A DNA stretch of 64,000 nucleotides, taken from contig JAXHMM010000007.1 of NCBI GenBank assembly GCA_034521445.1, positions 1 through 64,000 of the forward strand, written 5' to 3'. Source of the stretch: Balneolaceae bacterium. GTDB lineage: Bacteria > Bacteroidota > Rhodothermia > Balneolales > Balneolaceae. Shown piece after piece: positions 34,170 through 58,761 of the stretch. Below the pieces are notes generated by a model. That model worked only from the letters and a program-made list of their open reading frames with translations. It searched no databases and was not told the DNA's origin. Position numbers and translations under genes: made by a program. Each line of letters starts with the position of its first letter. Positions within the stretch are counted from its first letter, which is position 1.

Positions 34170-35477
34170 ATGCTGATGCGCCACCTCGCAACCGTTTCAT
34201 GCGTCCTTCGCACGCCGATCCCGGCCTTTCTGCCGCTGTTGGTCCTTCTGCTGATCACCGGATGCGGCACTTCGGAGGAGTTCACCGGTTTCTCCTACGA
34301 TCCGGAGGGCGTCACCGAGACCGAAACCCGTGACGTGCGTCCCATGCACCGCCGCACCATAGGTATCGCCTCCGAAGACCTCTGGGTGGGCAGCGAGTTC
34401 GAGGGGGCGCGCATGAGTGACTTCTACAAGGCGGGCGACTCCCTCTACCGGGTGGTGATCCGTCCCGAGAACGCCCCCATCAACAACAGTCCCTGGTACG
34501 CCTTCCGCATCTGGAGTTCCGAGAAACGCGAGCTGCGCCTGCAGCTCAGCTACGAGGACGGCGAGCACCGCTATCTCCCCGAGCTGAGCCGTGACGGAGA
34601 GCGTTGGCGTCGCATCGAGGCCTCCCGCTACGAGACCGACACGGCGGAGGGGACCGCCACCCTCCGCCTGGAGGTGGGTCCGCGTCCCCTCTGGGTCAGC
34701 GCCCAGGAGCTGGACACCTACGGGCGCTACGCCTCCTGGGCCGATTCGCTCACCGGCACAGCCGCGGTGACGCGCGACACCGTGGGCCGCTCACACCTTG
34801 GAAAGCCCGTGGAGAAGCTGACCCTGGACGAGGTGTCCGGGGAGGCTGGCAAACCCGCGGGCGTGCTGGTGATCACCGCACGGCAGCATCCCCCGGAGGT
34901 GACCGGCAGCATGGCCTTCCGCGCCTTTTTCGAGGAGCTGGCCGGCCACAGCGAGCTGGCCAGGCGTTTCCGGGCGCGCTTCGCCGTCTGGGCCTACCCC
35001 TTCCTGAATCCCGACGGGACGGACCGGGGACACTGGCGGAACAACGCGGGCGGGGTGGATCTAAACCGCGACTGGCGTCCCTTCAATCAGCCCGAAACGC
35101 AGGCCGTGCGCGACGACTTGCTGCCGCTTGCCGAGCGCCGGGACCTGCGCGTGTACTACGGCATCGATTTCCACTCCACCGACGAGAACATTTTCTACCC
35201 CATCGAGCGCCAGGTGGAGACCTTCCCCGACGACTTGACCTACCGTTGGACCGACGCCGTCACTTCCTCCTTTCCGGAGATCGATTTTGTGATCGACCCC
35301 TTCGACACCTCCTCCCCCATCATGAAAAACTGGATCTGGCGTACGTTCGGGGCCGACGCGGTCACCTACGAGGTGAACGACAACGCCGACCGCGGGGAGC
35401 TGCGCAGGGTGGCGCGCACCTCCGCCCGCCTCCTCATGGAGCAGCTCCTGGAAGCGTGGGAGTCCAGGGGTTCATAA
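34170..35477 (+). CDS. M14-family zinc carboxypeptidase lipoprotein
   Basis: A lipoprotein of about 435 residues with lipobox LLITGC (Cys32). An N-terminal beta-sandwich of about 150 residues, similar to those found before M14 domains, is followed by the catalytic domain. Zinc ligands appear in ARQHPPE (HxxE) and DFHSTDE, with the conserved NPDGTDRGHWRNNAGGVDLNRDW between them and a catalytic glutamate likely in YEVNDNADR. It would trim peptides or peptidoglycan stems in the periplasm. Starts at 34170 and 34176 are both possible. It is divergent from tamA and ends 36 bp before the CDF gene. Confidence 0.88.
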   Translation: MLMRHLATVSCVLRTPIPAFLPLLVLLLITGCGTSEEFTGFSYDPEGVTETETRDVRPMHRRTIGIASEDLWVGSEFEGARMSDFYKAGDSLYRVVIRPENAPINNSPWYAFRIWSSEKRELRLQLSYEDGEHRYLPELSRDGERWRRIEASRYETDTAEGTATLRLEVGPRPLWVSAQELDTYGRYASWADSLTGTAAVTRDTVGRSHLGKPVEKLTLDEVSGEAGKPAGVLVITARQHPPEVTGSMAFRAFFEELAGHSELARRFRARFAVWAYPFLNPDGTDRGHWRNNAGGVDLNRDWRPFNQPETQAVRDDLLPLAERRDLRVYYGIDFHSTDENIFYPIERQVETFPDDLTYRWTDAVTSSFPEIDFVIDPFDTSSPIMKNWIWRTFGADAVTYEVNDNADRGELRRVARTSARLLMEQLLEAWESRGS

Positions 35478-45443: not shown

Positions 45444-48101
45444 TTACCCGTATCGGATGACCACCATGGTCATGTCGTCGTGCTGCTTGGCCTCCCCTAC
45501 GAATTCCCGCACGTCCTCGAAGAGGCTGTCCAACACCCCTTTGGAAGTCTGTCCCCCATGGGCCTTCAGCAGCTCGCGCAGCCTCACCGCCCCGTAGAAG
45601 CGGCGTTCCTCGTCGAGGGCCTCCACGATGCCGTCGGTGTAGAGCAGCAGGATGTCGTCCTTCTCCAGCTCCACGGTCGTCTGGTGGATATTCAGGTCAA
45701 AGGATTCCTCGCGGGTAAGACCGATGCCCAGTCCGCCGGGCTGCAACTCGCGAATGCGGTCTTCCGAGCGGTCGTAGTGCAGGGCGGGATTGTGGCCGGC
45801 GCGTGCAAAGGTGAAGGTGCGCGAACGGGTGTCGATAATGCCGTAGACCAGGGAGATGAAGGTGCCCTTCTGGGCGTTGTCAAAAAAGAGGCGGTTGGTC
45901 TTCTTGAGAAGGTCGGCCGGGGAATCGGTTTCCCGGCAGAGGCTGTGGATGATGCCCTTGATGAAGGTCATGTAGAAGGCGGCCTGAATTCCCTTGCCGC
46001 TCACGTCGCCTATGGCCACTGCCATGCGGTGCTCGTCCAGCGGGATCAAATCGTAGTAGTCACCCCCGGTCTCGTGGGCCGGCTGGCAGATGGCGGCCAG
46101 GTCGAGGGAAGCCAGCCGCGGGATGCGCGTGGGCAGGAAGGACTGCTGTACTTCGCGGGCGATGACCAGCTCCTGTTTAATGCGCTCCTCCTGGGCCAGC
46201 TCCTCCACGTACTCGGGCACATAGCGCGGGAGCACCCGCTCCTCTTCACCCATAAGAATGGCCAGGCTGGCCGCGCTGATTAACAGAAGCACAAAGACTA
46301 GAAAGGTGACGAAAACGTAGAGGTCGGGAGAGTCGGGAGCCACCCAGCCGGAGGCGGTGCGCACCAAGCCCAGGAAAAGGAATAAAGAGATCAGCAGCGT
46401 GGAAAAGTCCCACTTCAGGTAGATAAGCGTCAGGGCCAGCCCCACCAGGCAGCCCGCCAGGAATTCCGGTCCCGCGGGTCCCGCGGCAATGTTCAGCGGG
46501 AAGAATACCCCGCAGGCCAGCGTCATGGCTGCGCCGGTCCAAAGGCGGCTGCGCGAGCGCGACCATACCAGGCTGCCCAGGATGAGAAAGATGCCCAGCA
46601 CCGCGGTAAAACTGAACCAGCTGTTGTGAAGCATTACGTAGAAGGGCGGCCAGCCGGCGGTGCCATCCAGGAATACGCCCCCTTCGGGTATGCCCAGGTA
46701 GAGACCCTGCATGGCCCACAGAAGAAGCGTCCAAATGCCCGCAAGGACCAGCGAGAGGGTGACCGAGCGCAGTACTACCGATCCCACGGGTTTGTTGAAG
46801 ACCGTGCCCTGCCGGATATAGTCGTAGGTGGCAAGTTTCTGCGGCCAGTGCTGTCGGGTCACCGAGTCACTGGTGGCAAACAGGATAAAAAATCCCACCG
46901 AGGCCGCTGCCGCCATGATGCCGGTGCCGATGAGCAGAAAGATGGCCTCGAACTGCCCGCCGGCATCGCCGAAGAGGTCGAAGCTCGCAATATTCTGCAG
47001 GATAAAGAACCCGGCAATACCCAGGCCCGATAGTATGGCCACCACCAGGGCCGACCGGGTGTCAATGGCCCGCGCGCGAAGTCGGTAAAAGAAGAGTATA
47101 AGGCAGCCCAGCAGGAAAATGACGACCACGGCGTTCTCCACCGTTCCGGCCACCGTGCCCCAGGTGGCGCCATTCGGCCGATCGGGATTCCAGGCGGCAT
47201 TCATCTGCAGCAGAGACCCGGTGGGCGCAATCTGCACGTCCAGTCGCAGTTGCTGGCCCTCGACCGGTGCGGAGTGGAATCTCACCACGGCGGAGTTGGT
47301 GCTTTCAACGCGCCGGATGAAGACCGTATCCCGTGCGAAGGTACTCCGGGCCCAGCCGCTTTGCTCCATAAAATGGCGTGCCATGCGCTCAGCCTCAAGC
47401 CGATTGATCCGGAAGGGCTGGCCTCTGCTGAAATTTTCCCTCATGGCCTGCAGGCGGGATGGTCCGCCCTCCACGGGCTGCTCAAGATCGAAGTAGAGCC
47501 GGCGGGTAAGGGCCGAGTCGGTCTGCCCCTGGATGGGGAGGGAGACAAGGGTATCGTCAATGCGCTCGCCGAAAGCCCTGGCCAGGGCCTCACGGTCAAG
47601 CAATTGCCGGGGCAGACGGTTGAGACTGTTGCGCAGCTCAAGGAAGTTGCCCTGCGGGTCGAAGCGGACACGGATGCCTGCATTCTCGCCCGGCGACGGA
47701 GGATCTCCGCTGGAGTTGACGCTCATCTCCACGTTGCCATCCTCCTCGCTGAAGGGATCGTAGAAGGCCACCTCCCAGTAAAAAGCCTTTAAGCCGGGAT
47801 TCGTGTCCGCGCGCAGGACCTCCACGGCGCGCTGCCTTCCCATCTCCCGCTGCAGGCTGTCCAGCATCACCGAATAGGGCCGCAGATGCACCTCGGTCCG
47901 GTAGTCGCTCAGGCTATAGCCCAGGCTGGAGAGCTGCTCCACCGACCGCAGCTCAATTTCGTCGGCCTCCGTGGATATCTCCGCCGTGGAGAGGGGATGC
48001 TGGGATGGGTAAAGCAGGAAAAAGACCACCGCCCCCGCCAAACCCAGCAGCAGCAGGAGCACGTCCCGCGAATCAGAGCTGAATGAAAAAATCCCGGCCA
48101 T
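45444..48101 (-). CDS. Membrane-bound PP2C (SpoIIE/RsbU-type) serine phosphatase
   Basis: A large 885-residue sensor phosphatase. A first membrane helix (about 14-32) is followed by an extracytoplasmic domain of some 280 residues, then about ten membrane helices from about 318 to 640. A linker helix with VREVQQS-like text (ELVIAREVQQSFLPTRIP) and a C-terminal PP2C domain (about 670-885) follow, with metal residues in HETGGDYYDLI, AIGDVSGKGI, LLYTDGIVEA and HDDMTMVVI. It is expected to dephosphorylate a STAS-domain antagonist such as the one at 9402-9746. The outer domain was not recognised and may bind an external signal. Confidence 0.88.
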   Translation of the reverse strand: MAGIFSFSSDSRDVLLLLLGLAGAVVFFLLYPSQHPLSTAEISTEADEIELRSVEQLSSLGYSLSDYRTEVHLRPYSVMLDSLQREMGRQRAVEVLRADTNPGLKAFYWEVAFYDPFSEEDGNVEMSVNSSGDPPSPGENAGIRVRFDPQGNFLELRNSLNRLPRQLLDREALARAFGERIDDTLVSLPIQGQTDSALTRRLYFDLEQPVEGGPSRLQAMRENFSRGQPFRINRLEAERMARHFMEQSGWARSTFARDTVFIRRVESTNSAVVRFHSAPVEGQQLRLDVQIAPTGSLLQMNAAWNPDRPNGATWGTVAGTVENAVVVIFLLGCLILFFYRLRARAIDTRSALVVAILSGLGIAGFFILQNIASFDLFGDAGGQFEAIFLLIGTGIMAAAASVGFFILFATSDSVTRQHWPQKLATYDYIRQGTVFNKPVGSVVLRSVTLSLVLAGIWTLLLWAMQGLYLGIPEGGVFLDGTAGWPPFYVMLHNSWFSFTAVLGIFLILGSLVWSRSRSRLWTGAAMTLACGVFFPLNIAAGPAGPEFLAGCLVGLALTLIYLKWDFSTLLISLFLFLGLVRTASGWVAPDSPDLYVFVTFLVFVLLLISAASLAILMGEEERVLPRYVPEYVEELAQEERIKQELVIAREVQQSFLPTRIPRLASLDLAAICQPAHETGGDYYDLIPLDEHRMAVAIGDVSGKGIQAAFYMTFIKGIIHSLCRETDSPADLLKKTNRLFFDNAQKGTFISLVYGIIDTRSRTFTFARAGHNPALHYDRSEDRIRELQPGGLGIGLTREESFDLNIHQTTVELEKDDILLLYTDGIVEALDEERRFYGAVRLRELLKAHGGQTSKGVLDSLFEDVREFVGEAKQHDDMTMVVIRYG

Positions 48102-48266
48102 AATCAGGTGCCTGACCCGTTTGAATTATAACGTCCAAAATAGTACAAAATCCCGTATTTTTTTAATGTTCCCCCCATAATATAGTGCGACGGAAGTCGA
48201 ATGATTCGCCCAAGGGGTCATGTTTCGCCTATATGGTACTCATTTGAACGGAAATCGTTGCAGTCT

Positions 48267-49049
48267 ATGTGCCTCATCGCCTTCTCCTACCGCAATCACC
48301 CGCGCTACGACCTGGTCTTCGCCGCCAATCGGGACGAGTTTTACGAGCGCCCCACCCGCGATGCGCAGTTTTGGGAGGAACGTCCCCGTCTGCTGGCGGG
48401 CAGAGACCTGAAGGCGGGCGGCACCTGGATGGGCATCACGCGCGGGGGACGCCTGGCCGCCCTCACCAACTACCGCGACATGGACAACCATAACCCTGAG
48501 GCCGCCAGCCGGGGTGAACTGGTGCTCGAGGCCCTGGCGTACGGGGGCGATACCGCGGAGCTTCTTCGGGAGATCGACGCGCGCGCCGGCCGTTACAACG
48601 GATTCAACCTGCTGGCAGGCAGCGTCTGCCGGCTGCACTACTATTCCAGCCGCGAGAGACGTGTCCGCGAGTTGGATCCGGGTCTCTATGGACTGAGCAA
48701 TCACCTGTTGGACACCCCGTGGCCCAAGGTGCGCTGCGCCAAGTCGGCCCTGGCAGAGATCCTGGCCGGGGAGGATCCCGACAGGGAGGCGCTGTTCGGG
48801 ATGCTGCTGGACCGAAAGGAGGCGTCCGGAGAACAGCTCCCCGACACGGGACTCCCGCCGGAGCGTGAGAAGGCGGTCTCCCCGGTGTTCATACGCTCGG
48901 AAGGCTACGGCACGCGCTGCTCGACGGTGTTGACGGTGGACAAGAAGGGACAGGTATACTTCGAAGAGCGGGTCTATCGGCCGGGAAGCCTGGAGGTGCA
49001 AAGTCGCAACCGGTACGAATTCACCCTGGAGGCGGAGCTGCAGAGCTAG
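48267..49049 (+). CDS. NRDE-domain (TANGO2-like) protein
   Basis: A 260-residue protein starting MCLIAFSYRNHPRYDLVFAANRDEFYERPT, the NRDE signature that names the family. LAGRDLKAGGTWMGITRGGRLAALTNYRD is the second conserved block. Eukaryotic homologue TANGO2 is linked to heme and lipid handling; the bacterial role is not established. The second residue is cysteine, resembling an N-terminal nucleophile arrangement, which is inference. The start is the ATG at 48267; the frame extends 22 codons upstream. It is convergent with the NhaC gene with a nine-base gap. Confidence 0.9.
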   Translation: MCLIAFSYRNHPRYDLVFAANRDEFYERPTRDAQFWEERPRLLAGRDLKAGGTWMGITRGGRLAALTNYRDMDNHNPEAASRGELVLEALAYGGDTAELLREIDARAGRYNGFNLLAGSVCRLHYYSSRERRVRELDPGLYGLSNHLLDTPWPKVRCAKSALAEILAGEDPDREALFGMLLDRKEASGEQLPDTGLPPEREKAVSPVFIRSEGYGTRCSTVLTVDKKGQVYFEERVYRPGSLEVQSRNRYEFTLEAELQS

Positions 49050-49058
49050 GCCTGCAGC

Positions 49059-50885
49059 CTACCCACCGTCTGCAATCTGCGTGCGGGCGGGTTCGGCACC
49101 CTCCGGGGTGTAGTCCGCAGGATCGGGCGTCTTGCCAAATTTCCAGATAATGGCCACGATGAGGGCCACGCCGGTCGGGTAGATGATCCACCAGGGGATG
49201 CCCGCCACCAGCAGGCCGATCATGGCCGCCACGCTGATTCCGCCCACGATCATGGCGTAGGGAAGCTGCGTGTTGACATGCTCCACATGGTCGCACTGTG
49301 TGGCGATGGAGCTCAGTATGGTGGTATCCGATATGGGCGAGCAGTGGTCGCCCCAGACTGAGCCGGTCAGCACCGCGCTGACACTGGCGTAGATAATCTC
49401 CGTCGTCATGTTTACGTCCAGCCCGCTGCTGCTGCCGATCTCCCAGGCCAGCGGCACTACGAGCGGCATGAGGATGCCCATGGTACCCCAGCTTGAGCCG
49501 GTGGCAAAGGCCGTCAGGGCGGAGAGTACCAGCACCAGGGCCGGCATCCAGTAGGGATTGAGGGCGTCGCCGAAGACCGACATCAAATAATCGGCCGTAC
49601 CCAGCTCCACGGTGATGGCGCTCAGCGCCCAGGCCAGCACCAGGATGAGCAGACCGTCGAACATAGTGTGCATGCCCTCCATCATGCCCTCCAGGGTCTC
49701 GTCCACGCTCAGCAGCTTCTGTGACAGGGTCATGCCTACAGCGGTGAAGAGCGCAATCAGGGAGCCCCAGAGCAGGGCTGCGTAGGAGTCGGCCGACTGA
49801 ATAACGTTCTGAATGCGCTCGCCCAGGCCCGCCCGCTCGAGGAAAGCCGCCGCCTCGGCCGTGCCCGCCTCCACGCCGGAAGGCAGCACCGAGCCGGTCA
49901 CGAAAAGACCGGCCACGCATCCGACCACCAGCACCGCGATGGGCACGACGGCGTTGATCCAGTGGGAGACCTTTTGGGTCTCCTCCTCCTGCTCCTCCAG
50001 CTTTTTCTTGTAGATGTTGTAGGTGTCCAGGGAGGGATCATACTTCGCCTTGTAGAGATTGATGCGCGAGGTGAGCATGGTGGCGAAATCCTTGCCCGAC
50101 CAGGCGATGAGAATCACAAAAAGAATGGTGAAAAAGGAGTAGAAATGGTAGGGAAGGGAGTTGATGAAGACCGAGTAGGCCGCCTCGTTGAAGTCGGGCA
50201 TCTTCGCCTGGGCGTCGGAGATAAAGCCCACCATGGCACCGATCCAGGTACTTACCAGGGCGATGGTGGCCACGGGCGCCGCGGTGGCGTCCACCAGGTA
50301 GGCCAGCTTGGCCCGGGAGATGCGCAGGCGGTCGGTCAGGGGACGCATCATGCTGCCCACCACCATGGTGTTGGCGTAGTCATCGAAGAAAACCACGAAT
50401 CCCATAAGCGAGGTGGTGAGCTGCCCCTGCACCTTGGTCTTTACGAAGCGGGTGATGGTGCGGATCACCCCGCGGGTGCCGCCGTTGTCGGTGATCACCC
50501 CCACCATGCCCCCGATGAGCAGAGTGAAGATAACGATGCTCATGTGACTGGCGTCGGCTGTGGCCGGGACGATGTAGTCGCTGAGAGCGGAGAAGAAGGA
50601 GGCGAAGAAATTTTCGAAACCGGGTCCCATAGCCAGGAAGGCCCCGCACCAGATGCCCAGGAACAGGGCGAATAGCACCTGGCGGAATAGAAGGGCGATA
50701 CCGATGGCCACCAGGGGCGGCAGAATACTGGTCCAGCTCACCCCGGCGTTGCCGGCGCCCGTTCCGCTCCCCTCCTGGGCCAGCTCCGCGGAACCGGAGA
50801 GGGCCAGCGAGGGATCCATCCAGAGTGCGACCAGAGCGGCGGCCGCTACAAACAGGAGGATTTTCTTTGTTATGCCGTTCATCAT
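49059..50885 (-). CDS. nhaC: Na+/H+ antiporter, NhaC family
   Basis: Inner-membrane antiporter of about 608 residues with some twelve helices. Characteristic regions are GGMVGVITDNGGTRG, FFDDYANTMVVGSMMRP and TGSSWGTMGILMPLVVPLAW, followed by SVWGDHCSPISDTTI, which contains conserved acidic and histidine residues. A charged cytoplasmic loop rich in E/K (about 290-310) splits the two halves. It exports sodium in exchange for protons, consistent with a saline habitat. The ATG at 50885 (or the adjacent 50882) was chosen over a TTG at 50903. Confidence 0.93.
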   Translation of the reverse strand: MMNGITKKILLFVAAAALVALWMDPSLALSGSAELAQEGSGTGAGNAGVSWTSILPPLVAIGIALLFRQVLFALFLGIWCGAFLAMGPGFENFFASFFSALSDYIVPATADASHMSIVIFTLLIGGMVGVITDNGGTRGVIRTITRFVKTKVQGQLTTSLMGFVVFFDDYANTMVVGSMMRPLTDRLRISRAKLAYLVDATAAPVATIALVSTWIGAMVGFISDAQAKMPDFNEAAYSVFINSLPYHFYSFFTILFVILIAWSGKDFATMLTSRINLYKAKYDPSLDTYNIYKKKLEEQEEETQKVSHWINAVVPIAVLVVGCVAGLFVTGSVLPSGVEAGTAEAAAFLERAGLGERIQNVIQSADSYAALLWGSLIALFTAVGMTLSQKLLSVDETLEGMMEGMHTMFDGLLILVLAWALSAITVELGTADYLMSVFGDALNPYWMPALVLVLSALTAFATGSSWGTMGILMPLVVPLAWEIGSSSGLDVNMTTEIIYASVSAVLTGSVWGDHCSPISDTTILSSIATQCDHVEHVNTQLPYAMIVGGISVAAMIGLLVAGIPWWIIYPTGVALIVAIIWKFGKTPDPADYTPEGAEPARTQIADGG

Positions 50886-51040
50886 ACCGCCTGGAAAATA
50901 CAATCTGCTGGCTTTATTGCCAGTGTCATTTTTATACGCCCCCTTTTAATCTTTTTACAGATACAATTTTGAAATGTGCGCTGAGCCGGTAACTTATGAA
51001 CTCTGATATCATTTTAATAACCACGCAAGAATCAAGATCC

Positions 51041-52660
51041 ATGAATAGCATACCCAAGAAGTGGACGGTGGCTGTGGTGACCCTGCTCTGCCTGGCGACA
51101 GGCGCCTACGCGCAGGACGACTACAGCTCCTATTCGGAGATGACCGACCGCCTTCAGGCGCTCGAGAGTTCTCATTCCGATTACGTGCAACTGGAATCCC
51201 TCACTGAAACGCTCGGCGGCAAAAACGTCTGGCTGCTGACCCTCTCCTCCGGCGATCCCTCCGCCAAGCCCGCCATCGCGGTGGTCGGCGGATCGGAAGG
51301 CTCCCATATCCTGGGCAGCGAGCTGGCGGTGCAGTTCGCCGAAAAACTACTGAACGGCACGCCGGGGGACAGCCTCGAGAGCCTGCTCTCGCGCACCACC
51401 TACTACGTGGTGCCGCGTCTGAACCCGGACGCCACCGAACAATATTTCGCCGACCTGCGCTACGAGCGCAACGCCAACGCCAGGGACACCGACACCGACC
51501 GTGACGGCCCGGTGAACGAGGACGGCTACGAAGACCTTAACGGCGACGGGCTGATCACCATGATGCGGGTCAGCGACCGCACCGGCGACTGGATGCCGCA
51601 CTCCGACGATCCGCGCGTAATGGTGGAGGCCGATGCCAGCGAGGGCGAGCGCGGCGCCTGGAGGATTTACTCCGAGGGACGTGACAACGACCGCGACGAC
51701 GCCTTTAACGAAGACGGGGCCGGCGGGGTGGATCTGAACATGAACTTCACCTTCGACTACCCTGCCTTCGAGCCGGGAGCCGGCGCCTTCATGCTTACCG
51801 AACGGGAGAACCGGGCGCTGCTCGATTTCCTCATGGAGGAGGCCTGGAACACCTATGCGGTGGTCTCCTTCGGACCGGCCAACAACCTCTCCGAGCCGAT
51901 CTCCTTCAATCCCGGCGGCATCTCACAGCGCGTCATCGACGGCTGGTACCGCGAGGACACCGAGCTGAACGCCATCGCCTCCGAGCTGTACAACGAGGTG
52001 ACCCGGCTATCGGGCGGAGAGAACGTATCCGGCGACCCCGGCGACTTCTTCCAGTGGGCCTACTTCCACTACGGCCGCCTCAGCCTGAGCACGCCCGGGT
52101 GGTGGACCTCCGGCGAATCGGGCAACGACCAGGCGGACTACCTGGCATGGGCAGACGGCCAGAACCTGGATGCCTTCGTGCCGTGGACAGAGATCAGCCA
52201 CCCCGACTTCCCCAACCGCACGGTGGAGGTGGGCGGCATCAAGCCATTCATGATGCACAATCCCCCCTACTCGGCAGTGGATACGCTGGCGGACAAACAC
52301 ACCGCCTTCCTGGCGCAGCTCAGCACGCTTCAGCCTTCCGTGGAGATCACCAACGTGGAGGTGGAGGAGGCAGGCGAGAACCTGACGCGCGTGACGGTCG
52401 ATCTCTACAACCCCGGCACGCTGCCCACGGCCACGCGCCTGGGTGAGCGTACACGCTGGGTTCGCGACGTAATCGCCGAGATCAGCCTGGGCGATGGACT
52501 CTCCCTGGTCAGCGGCGAACGCCTGAGCAACTTCGAATCCATCGGCGCTGACGCCAGCGAACGGCTGAGCTGGCTGGTGCGCGGAAGCGGTACCTTCTCG
52601 CTGAAGGCCGGCGCGCCCAACACTGGATTCACCACCATCGAGCAAAGCATTAATCAGTAA
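51041..52660 (+). CDS. M14-like protein with lost catalytic residues (probable pseudoenzyme)
   Basis: Exported protein of 539 residues (signal about 1-24, TLLCLATGAYAQ). It aligns without gaps with the M14 protein encoded next: KPAIAVVGGSEGSHILGSE against KPGMYIDGNIHSNEIQGTE. The zinc HxxE is replaced by ExxH (Glu86, His89). The NR motif reads DLNMN, the third ligand region reads SFGPANN instead of SYHNSGG, and the catalytic glutamate region is changed. It therefore probably lacks carboxypeptidase activity. EF-hand-like stretches (DTDTDRDGPVNEDG, DLNGDG) remain. It is 11 bp upstream of its intact paralogue. The ATG at 51041 gives the signal peptide. Confidence 0.85.
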   Translation: MNSIPKKWTVAVVTLLCLATGAYAQDDYSSYSEMTDRLQALESSHSDYVQLESLTETLGGKNVWLLTLSSGDPSAKPAIAVVGGSEGSHILGSELAVQFAEKLLNGTPGDSLESLLSRTTYYVVPRLNPDATEQYFADLRYERNANARDTDTDRDGPVNEDGYEDLNGDGLITMMRVSDRTGDWMPHSDDPRVMVEADASEGERGAWRIYSEGRDNDRDDAFNEDGAGGVDLNMNFTFDYPAFEPGAGAFMLTERENRALLDFLMEEAWNTYAVVSFGPANNLSEPISFNPGGISQRVIDGWYREDTELNAIASELYNEVTRLSGGENVSGDPGDFFQWAYFHYGRLSLSTPGWWTSGESGNDQADYLAWADGQNLDAFVPWTEISHPDFPNRTVEVGGIKPFMMHNPPYSAVDTLADKHTAFLAQLSTLQPSVEITNVEVEEAGENLTRVTVDLYNPGTLPTATRLGERTRWVRDVIAEISLGDGLSLVSGERLSNFESIGADASERLSWLVRGSGTFSLKAGAPNTGFTTIEQSINQ

Positions 52661-52671
52661 CAGATATCACT

Positions 52672-54423
52672 ATGAAGACGCTTAACACACTTTGTACGCT
52701 GCTACTGACCTGCGCCATGCTGGTCGTCCTGGCCCCCGATCCGGCCGGCGCCCAGACCTCCTCGGAGGGATTCTTCCCGGCCGCGGGCACTCCGGCCAAT
52801 CCGGAGGTGCAGGCCAGCTGGAACCGCTACTACAACTACCAGGGCTACACCGAACTCATCAACCAAATGGCCGAAGCGCATCCTGACCTGGTGCAGGTGC
52901 AGTCCATCGGGCAGTCCTACGAGGGACGTGACATCTGGCTGGTGACGGTCACCAACTTCAACGAGGGCGACCCCGACCGCAAGCCCGGTATGTACATCGA
53001 CGGGAACATCCACTCCAACGAGATCCAGGGTACGGAAATGTCCCTCTACACCATCTGGTACCTGTCGGAGCAGTTCGGCAACATCGAGTACATCACCCAG
53101 CTGATGAACGAGAAGGTGTTCTACATCGTCCCCTCCATCAACCCCGACGCCCGGGAGAACTTCTTTGACGAGCCCAACACAGCCAGCTCCCCACGTTCAG
53201 GCATGAAGCCCCTGGACGACGACGGGGACGGCCGCGTGGATGAGGACAACCTGGACGACCTGAACGGCGACGGCTCCGTCACTCTGATGCGACGCAAGAA
53301 CCCGCGCGGGGAGTACCGGGTCGACCCCGACTATCCCAACCGGATGGTGCAGGTGCCGGATGATCAGTTCGGCAACTACGAGATCCTGGGGCGCGAGGGT
53401 ATTGACAACGACGGCGACGGGGAGGTCAACGAAGACCGCCCCGGCTACTACGACCCCAACCGCGACTGGGCCTGGAACTGGCAGCCCGACTACATACAGG
53501 GCGGAGCGCATAAATATCCCTTCTCCCTGCCCGAAAACCGTGCAGTAGCTGACTTCGTGATGGAGCATCCCAACATTGCGGCCGCCCAGAGCTACCACAA
53601 CAGCGGCGGTATGATCCTGCGTGGACCGGGTGCTGCCGAGGATGTAAGCACCTACAACTACCAGGACATCCAGGTCTACGACGCCATCGCCGAGAAGGGC
53701 GAGTCCTTCATGCCCGGCTACCGCTACCTGGTGGTCTATGACGACCTCTACACGGTATTCGGTGGCGAATTGGACTGGTTCTACGGCAGCCGCGGCATCT
53801 TTACCTACTCCAACGAGCTGTGGACCTCCTACCTGCAGTTCTACTCGCAGGACCCGCCGCAGCCCGACGACTACGTCTTCAACCAGAGCCTGCTCTTCGG
53901 CGACGCCCACGTGGACTGGGAGTCCTACGACCATCCCACCTACGGGGAGATCGAGATCGGCGGCTTCAAGAAAAACTACGGCCGCGCCCACCCCGGCTTC
54001 CTGCTGGAGACGGACGCACACCGCAACATGGCCTTTACCCTATACCACACCTGGAACACGCCCCACCTTGTAATCGACGAGATCTCCACGCGGGATCTTG
54101 GCGGAGGGCAGCGCGAGGTCACCGCGGTGGTCACCAACACGCGCCTGATCCCCACCCACGCCAGCCACGACGTTCAGAACAACATTGAGCGGCCCGACTA
54201 CATCCGCATCGAGGGCGTGGACGTGGAGGCCGGCATGATCGTGGACGACCGCGACATGAACCAGACGGTCGAGCAGAAGGTGAACCCGCAGCAGCTGGAG
54301 GTGGAAAACATTCCCGGCATGGATTCCGTCGTGGTACGCTGGATTGTCAGCGGCAGCGGTGACTTTACCGTCACGGTCGACAGCGAGAAGGGCGGTGTGG
54401 CCAGCCGCTCCAGCGACGGGTAA
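52672..54423 (+). CDS. M14-family zinc carboxypeptidase, exported
   Basis: An active-looking 583-residue metallocarboxypeptidase with signal peptide (1-27). The zinc site is His114 and Glu117 (NIHSNE) plus the histidine of SYHNSGG; DPNRDW gives the substrate-binding NR pair, and the glutamate of TYSNELW is a candidate catalytic base. Two calcium-like acidic repeats, DDDGDGRVDEDNLDDLNGDGS and DNDGDGEVNEDR, are inserted between ligands. A C-terminal beta domain of about 110 residues follows. Likely degrades peptides outside the cytoplasm. It follows its inactive paralogue by 11 bp and ends before an intrinsic terminator. Confidence 0.92.
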   Translation: MKTLNTLCTLLLTCAMLVVLAPDPAGAQTSSEGFFPAAGTPANPEVQASWNRYYNYQGYTELINQMAEAHPDLVQVQSIGQSYEGRDIWLVTVTNFNEGDPDRKPGMYIDGNIHSNEIQGTEMSLYTIWYLSEQFGNIEYITQLMNEKVFYIVPSINPDARENFFDEPNTASSPRSGMKPLDDDGDGRVDEDNLDDLNGDGSVTLMRRKNPRGEYRVDPDYPNRMVQVPDDQFGNYEILGREGIDNDGDGEVNEDRPGYYDPNRDWAWNWQPDYIQGGAHKYPFSLPENRAVADFVMEHPNIAAAQSYHNSGGMILRGPGAAEDVSTYNYQDIQVYDAIAEKGESFMPGYRYLVVYDDLYTVFGGELDWFYGSRGIFTYSNELWTSYLQFYSQDPPQPDDYVFNQSLLFGDAHVDWESYDHPTYGEIEIGGFKKNYGRAHPGFLLETDAHRNMAFTLYHTWNTPHLVIDEISTRDLGGGQREVTAVVTNTRLIPTHASHDVQNNIERPDYIRIEGVDVEAGMIVDDRDMNQTVEQKVNPQQLEVENIPGMDSVVVRWIVSGSGDFTVTVDSEKGGVASRSSDG

Positions 54424-54488
54424 CAGGTTGCGGGGCGTTCTTGCTCTCGCCGGCCCTCACCGTTGGCCTGCACAAATTGATCTGAAAG

Positions 54489-54516
54489 GAGTCGCCTTCG
54501 GGCGGCTCTTTTTTTT
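54489..54516 (+). terminator. Intrinsic terminator after the M14 pair
   Basis: GAGTCGCC-TTCG-GGCGGCTC (one G-T pair) is followed by eight T residues, 65 bases after the stop codon. Confidence 0.9.
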
Positions 54517-54653
54517 GGTAACAGGTCGACGCCCAATGTGAGGCAGCCGGGTATTGTTCACGGCCGCGATAATAATTTCAGGCATCGGACTGTTTGATGT
54601 TTGAAGGCAGACATAGCATTTGGCAACCAGGGACTCACAAGCGAGGGCAATTC

Positions 54654-55097
54654 ATGTCTCCCATACTTTCCACCCACCGTCTGATCGCAATGCTTACACT
54701 CCTGCTGGCAGGACTCCTGTTTCAATCCTGCCTGGAATCACATTCGCCCCCTGTCTGCACATTGCAATTTGAAGTCCACCAGGTAACGGTACTGAATGCT
54801 GAGGGCGAGGCTGCCGATTCCGTCCAGATCCAGATCACCAACCAGGAGAACGGGGAGTCCTTCAGGCCCTGCGAAAGGGAATCCTACGACTGCCCCGTCG
54901 AAGGCTTCGAGGGGAGGTACACCATCATCCATGACGGCTATTTTGAGCATTCCGAAGAGGGAAAGGAGTTCAACCTGCGCGTGACCGGACAGAAGGATGA
55001 GATGAGTTTCCAGGCTGACTACACGTTTCGCAATGACGGCTGTCATATCCGCAAGGTGGCCGGCCCGGACAGCGTTTCGCTGGAGGCCTCCAACTGA
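54654..55097 (+). CDS. Small lipoprotein of unknown function
   Basis: A 147-residue protein with a clear lipoprotein signal (LLLAGLLFQSC, Cys26). The mature part has six cysteines and beta-type text (FEVHQVTVLNAEGEAADSVQIQI), suggesting a small Ig-like or carboxypeptidase-regulatory-type sandwich stabilised by disulfides. I do not recognise a family. The ATG at 54654 starts the signal; an earlier ATG at 54594 would add an unconvincing 20 residues. It has its own unit after the terminator of the M14 pair. Confidence 0.65.
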   Translation: MSPILSTHRLIAMLTLLLAGLLFQSCLESHSPPVCTLQFEVHQVTVLNAEGEAADSVQIQITNQENGESFRPCERESYDCPVEGFEGRYTIIHDGYFEHSEEGKEFNLRVTGQKDEMSFQADYTFRNDGCHIRKVAGPDSVSLEASN

Positions 55098-55216
55098 TGG
55101 TTCAATGCACCCAGGCGAGCACCGGCGCCCTGGCGGATTCCTACCCGCAGCAGGGCCTGGCCGAGCAGATACGCATACTCCGGTAGCCCGGCACAGATGG
55201 CCGCTGGACTATGGCC

Positions 55217-56701
55217 CTAGCCCAACTCGTCGATGGCCGCACGGATACGCCGCACCGTGGTCTCGCGGCCCAACAGCTCGAGGGTGGGAAATAGATCGGG
55301 TCCGTAACCCTGGCCGGTGACCGCGATCCGCAGGGGCATCATGATGGGGCCCCAGCCAATGTCGTGCTCCTCGATGAGTTCTTTGATGTGGTCTTTCAGC
55401 GTGCCGGCCGTGAATTCGTCCGCCGCAAGATCGCCAATTCGCCCAAGGTAGTCCTCCAGCAGGCCGGCGCTGTCCTCCTTCCACTTCTTGAGGGCCTTCT
55501 CATCGTAGCTCTCCGGGTCCTCGAAGAAAAACAGGCCCTCGGTGACGAAATCCTCCACCTTGCTGGCGCGGTCCTTCATCAGCGGGATGACCTCCCTGAG
55601 GTAACCCTCGTCGGGATTGTGGCCGTACTCCCCGGCGATGACCTGCACGCGCGGGTAGAGCTCCTGTACAGACTTCTCGCGCAGATACTGCTCGTTATAC
55701 CAGATCAGTTTCTTGTAGTCGAAGACCGCCCCGCCCTTGCTGACGCGGTCCAGCGAGAAGAGCCCGGTCAGCTCCTCCATGGAGTGGATTTCGCTGTCGT
55801 CGCCCGGGCTCCAGCCCAGGTAGGCCAGGAAGTTGACCAGGGCCTCCGGCTCGAACTTCTGCTCGCGGTAATCCCGGGTGTTGATGGGAATGCCCTCGCT
55901 TTCGGCCTTGCGCTTGGAGAGCTTGCCGCCGGAAGGCGACATGATCAGGGGCAGGTGTGCCATGACGGGCGCCTCCCATCCCAGGTATTCGTAGAGCAAC
56001 ATGTGCTTGGGCGTGCTGCTGAGCCACTCCTCGCCACGGATCACGTGGGTGATCTCCATCAGGTGATCGTCCACCACGTTGGCCAGATGGTAGGTGGGCA
56101 TGCCGTCCGACTTGAGCAGCACCTGGTCGTCCAGGCCCTTGCTTTCGAAGGAGACAAAGCCGCGCACCTCGTCCTCGAAGCGCACCGTCTCCCGGCGCGG
56201 CACCTTGAGCCGGATGACGTAGTCTTCGCCCTCCTCCAGCAGCCGGTCCACTTCCTCCTGCGGCAGGGTGAGGCTGTTTTTCATGGACATGCGCGTGATG
56301 GCGTCGTACTTGGGCGAGGGGTTGCCCGACTTCTCCAGGCGCTCCCGCATCTGGTCCAGTTCCTCCGGGGTGTCAAAGGCGTAGTAGGCGTGGCCCGATT
56401 CCACCAGTTTCTCGGCGTACTGGGCATAGATGTCCTTGCGCTCGCTCTGGCGATAAGGACCGAATTCGCCCGGCTTGCCGGGTCCCTCGTCGAAATCCAT
56501 GCCCGCCCACAGCAGGGAGTCCACGATGTCCTGCTCGGCCTCCTCCACGTAGCGGGACTGGTCGGTGTCCTCGATACGGAGCACAAACACGCCGTCGTGG
56601 TGACGTGCGTAGAGGTAATTGAAAAGGGCGGTCCGGAGTCCCCCGACGTGCAGGAGTCCGGTGGGAGAAGGGGCAAATCGTACGCGAACGGTGCCTTCCA
56701 T
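55217..56701 (-). CDS. gltX: Glutamate--tRNA ligase
   Basis: Class I aminoacyl-tRNA synthetase of 494 residues that charges tRNA-Glu. The HIGH-type motif is PSPTGLLHVGG at about residues 11-21 and the KMSKS-type motif is GGKLSKRK at about 260. The anticodon-binding region fills the C-terminal 170 residues. Length and motifs match discriminating bacterial GltX; whether it also charges tRNA-Gln cannot be seen. About 120 bp downstream of it hold no gene that I can support. Confidence 0.97.
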   Translation of the reverse strand: MEGTVRVRFAPSPTGLLHVGGLRTALFNYLYARHHDGVFVLRIEDTDQSRYVEEAEQDIVDSLLWAGMDFDEGPGKPGEFGPYRQSERKDIYAQYAEKLVESGHAYYAFDTPEELDQMRERLEKSGNPSPKYDAITRMSMKNSLTLPQEEVDRLLEEGEDYVIRLKVPRRETVRFEDEVRGFVSFESKGLDDQVLLKSDGMPTYHLANVVDDHLMEITHVIRGEEWLSSTPKHMLLYEYLGWEAPVMAHLPLIMSPSGGKLSKRKAESEGIPINTRDYREQKFEPEALVNFLAYLGWSPGDDSEIHSMEELTGLFSLDRVSKGGAVFDYKKLIWYNEQYLREKSVQELYPRVQVIAGEYGHNPDEGYLREVIPLMKDRASKVEDFVTEGLFFFEDPESYDEKALKKWKEDSAGLLEDYLGRIGDLAADEFTAGTLKDHIKELIEEHDIGWGPIMMPLRIAVTGQGYGPDLFPTLELLGRETTVRRIRAAIDELG

Positions 56702-56884
56702 GAATGTGGGCTGTAGGTTAGGGATGCGGTTGGTTGGAAGTCAGGAAAAATAAGGTATTGCGGGGAGGAGTGCTAGTCATCGGGAGAGCATACGGGACCC
56801 GCCGGCGCTCCTTCCGGCAAGGTTTAACCCCGGGATGCGAGCCCGATCTGTACTCTATCCGGACAAATCCCTATTCTGGTGTCA

Positions 56885-57559
56885 ATGACCCTTGCACTGC
56901 TATATCCCCAGCTGGCCCCCAACCTCTACGACCTGGCCCTGATGATGCGAGCCGACCGGGTAGTGCTGCTGGATACCGAAACGTGGTCGCGCAAAAGCCG
57001 CATCCACCGCACCCGCATACGCACCCCGCAGGGCACGCAGTGGATCAACATCCCGGTGCGCACCGATGACCGCGACAAGCCGGTGCGCGCCGTGCGCATA
57101 GACCATGCCGAAGAGTGGGCCACCCCCCTGCTGCGCAGCCTGACCTACAACTACCGCAACAGTCCCTACTTCGACTTCTACGAGCCGGAGATCCGCGCCG
57201 ATTTCGAGGCCGCCGCCGACTTCGAATTCCTGATGCCCTTCGTGCTTCACGTGCAGGAGAGGCTGCTGCGTTTTATGGAGCATCCGGTGCACTACGACCT
57301 GGCCTTCGGGCTGGAGGACTACACCTCCGATCCCGACGAGCTGGCCCGGAGGCTGGGCGCCGACCGTCTCTGGCAGGAACACGACAGCCGCCACTACATG
57401 CGACAGGCGGAAAACGCTACAGTGCTTCCGGGCTTCCGCCATCCCCGCTACCGCCAGCACTTCGAAGGCTTCGAGCCCTGGTGCGGCCTCTTCGACCTGC
57501 TCTTTCAATTCGGGCCCGAAAGCTTTAAGATTACGGACCGCATCCGCGAATCCGCATAA
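56885..57559 (+). CDS. WbqC-family protein
   Basis: A 224-residue protein matching the WbqC family, whose members occur in O-antigen and capsule loci and are probably involved in polysaccharide synthesis or transfer. It begins ALLYPQLAPNLYDLALMMRADRVVLLD and has the typical WINIPVRTDDR and SPYFDFYEPEI blocks. The ATG at 56885 is preferred to a GTG six bases before. It lies 14 bp before a class V aminotransferase gene and probably shares a transcript. No other polysaccharide genes surround it, so its substrate is open. Confidence 0.85.
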   Translation: MTLALLYPQLAPNLYDLALMMRADRVVLLDTETWSRKSRIHRTRIRTPQGTQWINIPVRTDDRDKPVRAVRIDHAEEWATPLLRSLTYNYRNSPYFDFYEPEIRADFEAAADFEFLMPFVLHVQERLLRFMEHPVHYDLAFGLEDYTSDPDELARRLGADRLWQEHDSRHYMRQAENATVLPGFRHPRYRQHFEGFEPWCGLFDLLFQFGPESFKITDRIRESA

Positions 57560-57573
57560 AAACGACATCGGAC

Positions 57574-58761
57574 ATGGAGTGTCAAAAGAACCTGTTCCAC
57601 CTGGAGGAGGGCCACCACTACCTGAACTGCGCCTTCCTCTCCCCCCTGCTCAAGAGCGCGGAGGCGGCGGGCGTGGAAGGCATCCGCGCCAAAACCTGCC
57701 CCTGGGAGGTCACGCCCGACCGCTTTTTTGAAGACGGCAACCTCCTTCGGGCGCGCTTCGCCGAGCTGGTGAACGCCCCATCGGCCGACCGGGTGGCCCT
57801 CATGCCGGCGGTCTCCTACGGGGTGGCCACGGCGGTGAAGAATCTTCCGCGGCCCGGCAAGGGCCGTGCCTGGGGCCATGGCGGCAGCGGCAAGCCCCGC
57901 ATCGTGCTCAACGACGAGCAGTTTCCCAGCAACGTCTACGCCTGGCAGCGCTTCGCCCGGGAGCAGGGCTGCGAGATCCACACGGTGGAGGCACCGGAGA
58001 CCGTCGACGGCCGCGGCGCGGCCTGGAACGAGCGCCTGCTGGAGGCCATCACCGACGACACCCTGGCCGTGGCCCTGGCACCCCTGCACTGGACCGACGG
58101 CACGCTCTTCGATCTGGAGGCGGTGGGGCGGCGCTGCCGGGAGACCGGCTCCTACCTGATCGTGGACGGCACCCAGTCCGTGGGCGCCCTCCCCTTCGAC
58201 GTGCAGGCCGTGCAGCCTGACGCCCTCTTCTGCGCCGGCTACAAGTGGCTGCTGGGACCCTACTCCATGGCGCTGGGCTATTTCGGCGAACGGCTGCTCG
58301 ACGGGGTTCCCCTGGAGGAGGGATGGCTCAACCGCAGGGAGAGCGAGGACTTCGCGGGCCTGGTGGACTACCAGCCAGAATACCAGCCGGGCGCCCGGCG
58401 CTACGACGTGGGCCAGAGCAGCAACTTTGTGCTGGTGCCCATGATGCTGCGCGCCGTGGAGCAGCTACTGAAATGGGGGCCCGCCGAAATCCAGCGCTAC
58501 TGCCGCGAGCTGACCGCGCCCCTGGCCGGGGAGCTGCCGGTCCGCGGCTACCGCCTGGAGAACCCCGACTTCCGGGCCCACCACCTCTTCGGCATTCGCC
58601 TGCCCTCCGGACTTACCAACGAGGAGCTGAAAACGCGGCTGGGCGCACGCAACATCCACGTCTCCCTGCGTGGCTCGGCGGTGCGCATCTCACCCAACGT
58701 ATATAACACCGAGGAAGACATCGCCGCTCTGATGGAAGTGCTGAAAGAGGTGCAGGAGTAG
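57574..58761 (+). CDS. Class V PLP-dependent aminotransferase/desulfurase-like protein
   Basis: A 395-residue fold-type I PLP enzyme. The aspartate of IVDGTQSVGALPFDV contacts the pyridine nitrogen and the lysine of FCAGYKWLLGP forms the Schiff base. The C-terminal domain has GIRLPSGLTNEELK. The order matches the class V family that includes SufS-like desulfurases and kynureninase-like enzymes; the sulfur-handling cysteine of SufS is not evident, so an aminotransferase or isomerase-like role is possible. It follows the WbqC gene by 14 bp. Confidence 0.85.
   Translation: MECQKNLFHLEEGHHYLNCAFLSPLLKSAEAAGVEGIRAKTCPWEVTPDRFFEDGNLLRARFAELVNAPSADRVALMPAVSYGVATAVKNLPRPGKGRAWGHGGSGKPRIVLNDEQFPSNVYAWQRFAREQGCEIHTVEAPETVDGRGAAWNERLLEAITDDTLAVALAPLHWTDGTLFDLEAVGRRCRETGSYLIVDGTQSVGALPFDVQAVQPDALFCAGYKWLLGPYSMALGYFGERLLDGVPLEEGWLNRRESEDFAGLVDYQPEYQPGARRYDVGQSSNFVLVPMMLRAVEQLLKWGPAEIQRYCRELTAPLAGELPVRGYRLENPDFRAHHLFGIRLPSGLTNEELKTRLGARNIHVSLRGSAVRISPNVYNTEEDIAALMEVLKEVQE

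Follow-up and report, generated by a model that had tools for sequence, protein, structure and literature searches.

In a 2024 review of metallopeptidase pseudoenzymes, M14 cases were drawn only from vertebrates and fungi, together with a role of CPD domain III in Drosophila, and bacterial two-gene pairs were mentioned only for family M16 (PMC11266112). In one M16 pair, TTHA1264 has no activity alone and heterodimerises with TTHA1265, its neighbour (PMC12731061). The roles of the animal and fungal M14 pseudopeptidases have so far been hard to test, and among open-licence PMC papers we found none describing a bacterial M14 enzyme-pseudoenzyme pair. We analysed a 64,000-nucleotide stretch of a Balneolaceae bacterium genome (contig JAXHMM010000007.1, positions 1 to 64,000, here called the window), which contains a candidate for such a pair; the two genes are referred to as pse and act. 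Our proposal, to which we give somewhat less than an even chance, is that they represent a widespread bacterial M14 carboxypeptidase of two subunits that has apparently not been described. An ancient pseudoenzyme would be its obligate partner, which would make it the M14 equivalent of the active/inactive heterodimers of M16; a single duplication, predating the divergence of many Bacteroidota lineages, would have produced the pair, and the two genes would since have been inherited as a unit.

Both genes lie on the forward strand, as do all features given below for them. The pse gene (51041..52660) starts with ATG at 51041, its stop codon ends at 52660, and it encodes a predicted secreted M14 pseudopeptidase of 539 aa; act (52672..54423) starts with ATG at 52672, its stop codon ends at 54423, and it encodes a predicted secreted M14 metallocarboxypeptidase of 583 aa. 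The gap of 11 bp (52661..52671), reported correctly with both frames in the first-pass annotation, is consistent with one transcript. Behind act we found a probable intrinsic terminator (54484..54513) with a 13-pair stem and a UUCG loop, the 3′ side of which runs into a T tract (-20.2 kcal/mol, z -4.5). This hairpin was absent from the consensus terminator scan, probably since some of the T tract is taken up by the stem. Since such a hairpin with a T tract follows act and the gene upstream of pse is divergently transcribed, pse and act look like a short bicistronic unit. The consensus promoter scan of the locus gave no match, which is uninformative, since the consensus was that of sigma-70 and Bacteroidota promoters differ.

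Pfam M14 matches above cut-off were obtained for pse (65.9 bits) and act (137.2 bits), and the two proteins could be aligned over nearly their whole lengths with 26% identity (E 9e-41); judged from these matches, the paralogy claimed on first reading is far beyond chance. NCBIfam gave no match for either protein. A signal-peptide-like hydrophobic N-terminus is present on each of them, and both are predicted to be exported to the periplasm or outside. Elsewhere in the window (34761-35249) another M14 match was found inside a 475-aa open frame.

The active site of act is complete. The zinc ligands of CPA (H69, E72 and H196) correspond to H114, E117 and H309, and N144, R145, Y248 and E270 correspond to N263, R264, Y360 and E382, all seven being invariant in 81 of 81 sequences. 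R175 is the probable R127 equivalent, and the spacing of 22 residues from Y248 to E270 and the GGxxDW motif agree with CPA. With its full set of zinc ligands, Glu270 as general base, and both Arg145 and Tyr248, as expected of an M14 metallocarboxypeptidase, act is predicted to be a working carboxypeptidase. CPA position 255 is occupied by L367, which, read with established knowledge of M14 enzymes, suggests that act prefers hydrophobic C-terminal residues. A separate M14 subgroup of the phylum, with proteins of 664-694 aa (L158-L161, from genomes G127, G076, G190 and G179), has HSGE and GDELW motifs in the alignment but SMDTRVP at the expected third zinc histidine, which could mean either an atypical zinc site or a ligand overlooked by the alignment.

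None of the three zinc ligands is found in pse, where H69 is replaced by E86, E72 by H89 and H196 by G278. The changes noticed in the first-pass annotation, HSNE to EGSH and SYHNSGG to SFGPANN with loss of the third ligand histidine, are real in the alignment. Its claim that the NR pair had gone holds for the arginine, which is methionine (M234), but not for the asparagine, which is kept (N233). Two further losses had escaped it: Tyr248 (Y360 in act, S330 in pse) and Glu270 (E382 in act, P352 in pse). Lacking the zinc ligands and Glu270 of an active M14 peptidase, pse is predicted to be a catalytically dead M14 protein; it is still an M14 homologue by Pfam, PF00246 being found in 42 of 42 family members.

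The loss is general among relatives. At the third-ligand position, 81 close relatives of pse carry Ser (60) or Gly (21), and at the E270-equivalent position Pro (74), Gln (6) or His (1). The exchange of His and Glu is true of the copy in the window, but it is not conserved: by hand count both residues of the E..H arrangement are complete in about 58 of the 81 close relatives, the others having S, K, D, M, L or A at the first position and E, R, Q, D or T at the second, and both residues together are rarer still among the deep members. These deep members (L129 to L143 and others) all lack the active site. A conserved ExxH acting as a repurposed zinc site is ruled out, as both residues drift among relatives. 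From these comparisons the site loss is ancestral and fixed and the E..H swap incidental, with other parts of the protein under constraint.

Some residues of the substrate-binding site persist. None of the 81 close relatives deviates at R143 (the R127 equivalent by its spacing from NPD) or at N233 (the N144 equivalent), 78 of the 81 have K or R at position 145, and the NR pair is often kept in the deep members. Such retention would suit a separate peptide-binding protein, the R127 and N144 equivalents of which hold C-terminal carboxylates and which delivers or protects substrates of act without forming a stable complex. We consider this unlikely. Judged from the alignment, the specificity pocket (positions 254-255) appears to be filled by FF in close relatives. 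Tyr248 has been lost, no more than 31 of the 41 diverse members retain R143, and pse of the window itself has M at position 145.

Over the 41 diverse members, N282 (40/41), H343 (38/41), W370 and P402 are near-invariant and specific to pse. As N282 and H343 differ from the residues of act, a new catalytic or metal site might have been formed from other residues, for example N282, H343 and H387; this reading we regard as improbable, because the former zinc positions, occupied by E86 and H89, vary among relatives and H387 is common to pse and act.

Acidic DxDxDG-like repeats, also claimed for both proteins on first reading, are present and are conserved in both families. In pse the first cluster (DTDTDRDG...DLNGDG) is encoded at 51485..51550, with columns conserved in both families, and the second repeat (DNDRDDAFNED) at 51683..51715; in act the first cluster (DDDGDGRVDED...DLNGDG) is at 53215..53274 and the second repeat (DNDGDGEVNED) at 53404..53436. 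All four are putative calcium-binding sites. The AlphaFold2 model of pse (pLDDT 85.7, pTM 0.87) has an M14 fold and superposed on carboxypeptidase T with 3.2 Å rmsd over 289 residues (Z 25.8). The model of act, built with only 23 aligned sequences, has a pLDDT of 72.1 and is still M14. In Pfam, nothing beyond M14 was matched by the pse family except for one weak EF-hand match in one member. The M14 domain was matched in a PDB sequence search only over its N-terminal part, and the C-terminal beta domain, searched within the whole protein, had no separate sequence match.

Through a genome scan 149 pse relatives were obtained, the best 80 of which were used for locus analysis; these belong to Cyclobacteriaceae, Roseivirga, Flavobacteriaceae, Bacteroidales MAGs and a Balneolaceae MAG. 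In all 78 loci with enough flank act is located directly downstream of pse on the same strand, and the two remaining loci end at a contig edge. The gap is mostly 3-13 nt, being 13 nt or less in 58 of 77 measured relatives, and in one genome (G403) it coincides with an assembly break. Of 395 genomes of the phylum, 36 contain pse, 37 contain act and 36 contain both (Fisher p ~2e-50, shared ancestry being ignored), and the single act without pse begins at the first bases of its contig. In one genome (G192) the two genes are both kept but are found on different contigs, neither of them close to a contig end. The gene pair is well conserved across relatives. It is accessory in Balneolaceae, as about 19 of 92 genomes carry pse.

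No neighbouring genes are common across families and only the pse-act pair is shared, so a wider operon is ruled out. Within Balneolaceae, where the neighbourhood was examined over window positions 45444-58761 and genes were named from reading the sequences without a family search, the pair is often located between an NhaC-like antiporter gene (49059-50903, reverse strand) and gltX (55217-56701, reverse strand). Natural act-pse fusions were found neither among the open frames of the scanned pse loci nor in the genomes of the phylum. Some Bacteroidales and f24 genomes contain pse-act-act triplets. Triplets were noted at L018, L056, L070, L134 and L135; in the last copy of L135 the third zinc His is replaced by Leu (LYLNTGG), and this is possibly a second, younger inactive copy. 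In genome G116 the pse homologue (L134:2216-3864) is split over two frames of 192 and 365 aa, by a frameshift or a sequencing error.

The gene order could also be read as that of a co-secreted inhibitor or zymogen-like regulator, pse occluding the active site of act until it is removed; being encoded ahead of act, the inhibitor would be made first, and both proteins have signal-peptide-like N-termini. Inhibitor complexes occur among the structures found. Known protein inhibitors of M14 enzymes are small, and a full-size paralogue in this role would be unusual for the family. Nothing in the sequence marks the active site of act as the contact, and we give this reading little chance.

In a tree of 84 sequences pse and act each formed one clade with SH-aLRT of 99, that of pse extending over many families, though the outgroup root was weak (47). 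The duplication behind the pair is older than the split of many families. The pse and act subtrees mirror each other in topology, and the identity matrices of 32 diverse pairs are correlated with r = 0.90, a value as high being reached in 0 of 2000 permutations. One genome (G092) carries two pairs, and the nearest neighbours of each pse match those of its own act. Over 18 close pairs dN/dS was 0.015-0.076 for pse (median 0.059) and 0.007-0.092 for act (median 0.022). Both genes are therefore under strong purifying selection, and pse, conserved and selected despite its lost site, is a predicted pseudopeptidase. The lost catalytic residues of pse and an amino-acid evolution two to three times faster than that of act might suggest a recent duplicate that is decaying into a pseudogene. 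This reading has a negligible chance and is refuted by open frames of full length at each of the 80 loci scanned, a dN/dS of about 0.06, the age of the duplication and the near-perfect co-occurrence with act.

The one-to-one pairing, the constant order and short spacing, the tendency of genomes to keep the two genes together or lack both, and the selection on pse without a catalytic site point to a partner role, and pse is probably functional as a partner and not in decay. This bears out the first suggestion of a secreted enzyme with a co-expressed pseudoenzyme, for which we have signal-like N-termini, the M14 fold, the site loss in all relatives examined, adjacency, co-occurrence and purifying selection. 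Among the partner roles then named (subunit, inhibitor or substrate-binder), a subunit is favoured. In this mechanism act would work as a secreted M14 carboxypeptidase, with pse as its dedicated, catalytically dead M14 partner; pse would bind act physically, and act would require it to fold, to remain stable or to handle substrates, so that the pair would operate like the inactive and active M16B subunits, the nearest mechanism described so far. We give an even chance to act forming, and depending on, a stable complex with its dedicated pse, which makes this the likeliest of the readings considered. Several observations count against such a complex. The unlinked genes of G192 mean that co-translation is not essential, and a mirrored topology would also arise if the two genes were co-inherited but their products never met. 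The faster evolution of pse, the lack of natural fusions among the scanned frames and the split pse of G116 are likewise counted against it.

Compared with solved structures, the closest are carboxypeptidase T and the pancreatic carboxypeptidases A and B (M14A), with Z of 25.8 for pse and up to 26.8 for act. Like these enzymes act keeps all catalytic residues, whereas pse is without an active site. Each of them works as one active enzyme, about 300-325 residues long, while pse and act add acidic-repeat insertions and a C-terminal beta domain.

The eukaryotic M14 pseudopeptidases (AEBP1/ACLP, CPXM1, CPXM2, CPD domain III and fungal Ecm14) resemble pse in being secreted proteins of M14 fold in which zinc ligands, substrate-binding residues or Glu270 are replaced (PMC11266112, PMC7706225). 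All five keep H69, and all but CPD domain III keep E72; pse, in contrast, has lost all three ligands, Tyr248 and Glu270, and has a one-to-one active partner encoded alongside. As Pfam files pse as a zinc carboxypeptidase, automatic annotation likely calls this dead protein a peptidase. In a bacterial operon that also encodes a one-to-one active partner, the role of a dead M14 domain could be tested directly.

Family M16 differs from the pair in its unrelated fold and motif (clamshell endopeptidases with HxxEH), and pse and act are not M16 members. In the M16B heterodimers and the mitochondrial processing peptidase both subunits are needed for function, as would be the case for pse and act. In gene arrangement the two kinds of pair are alike: as in the bacterial M16B heterodimers SPH2681/SPH2682, TTHA1264/TTHA1265 and AlbF/AlbE, pse and act are adjacent paralogous genes, here co-inherited, one with its zinc site intact and the other with it lost.
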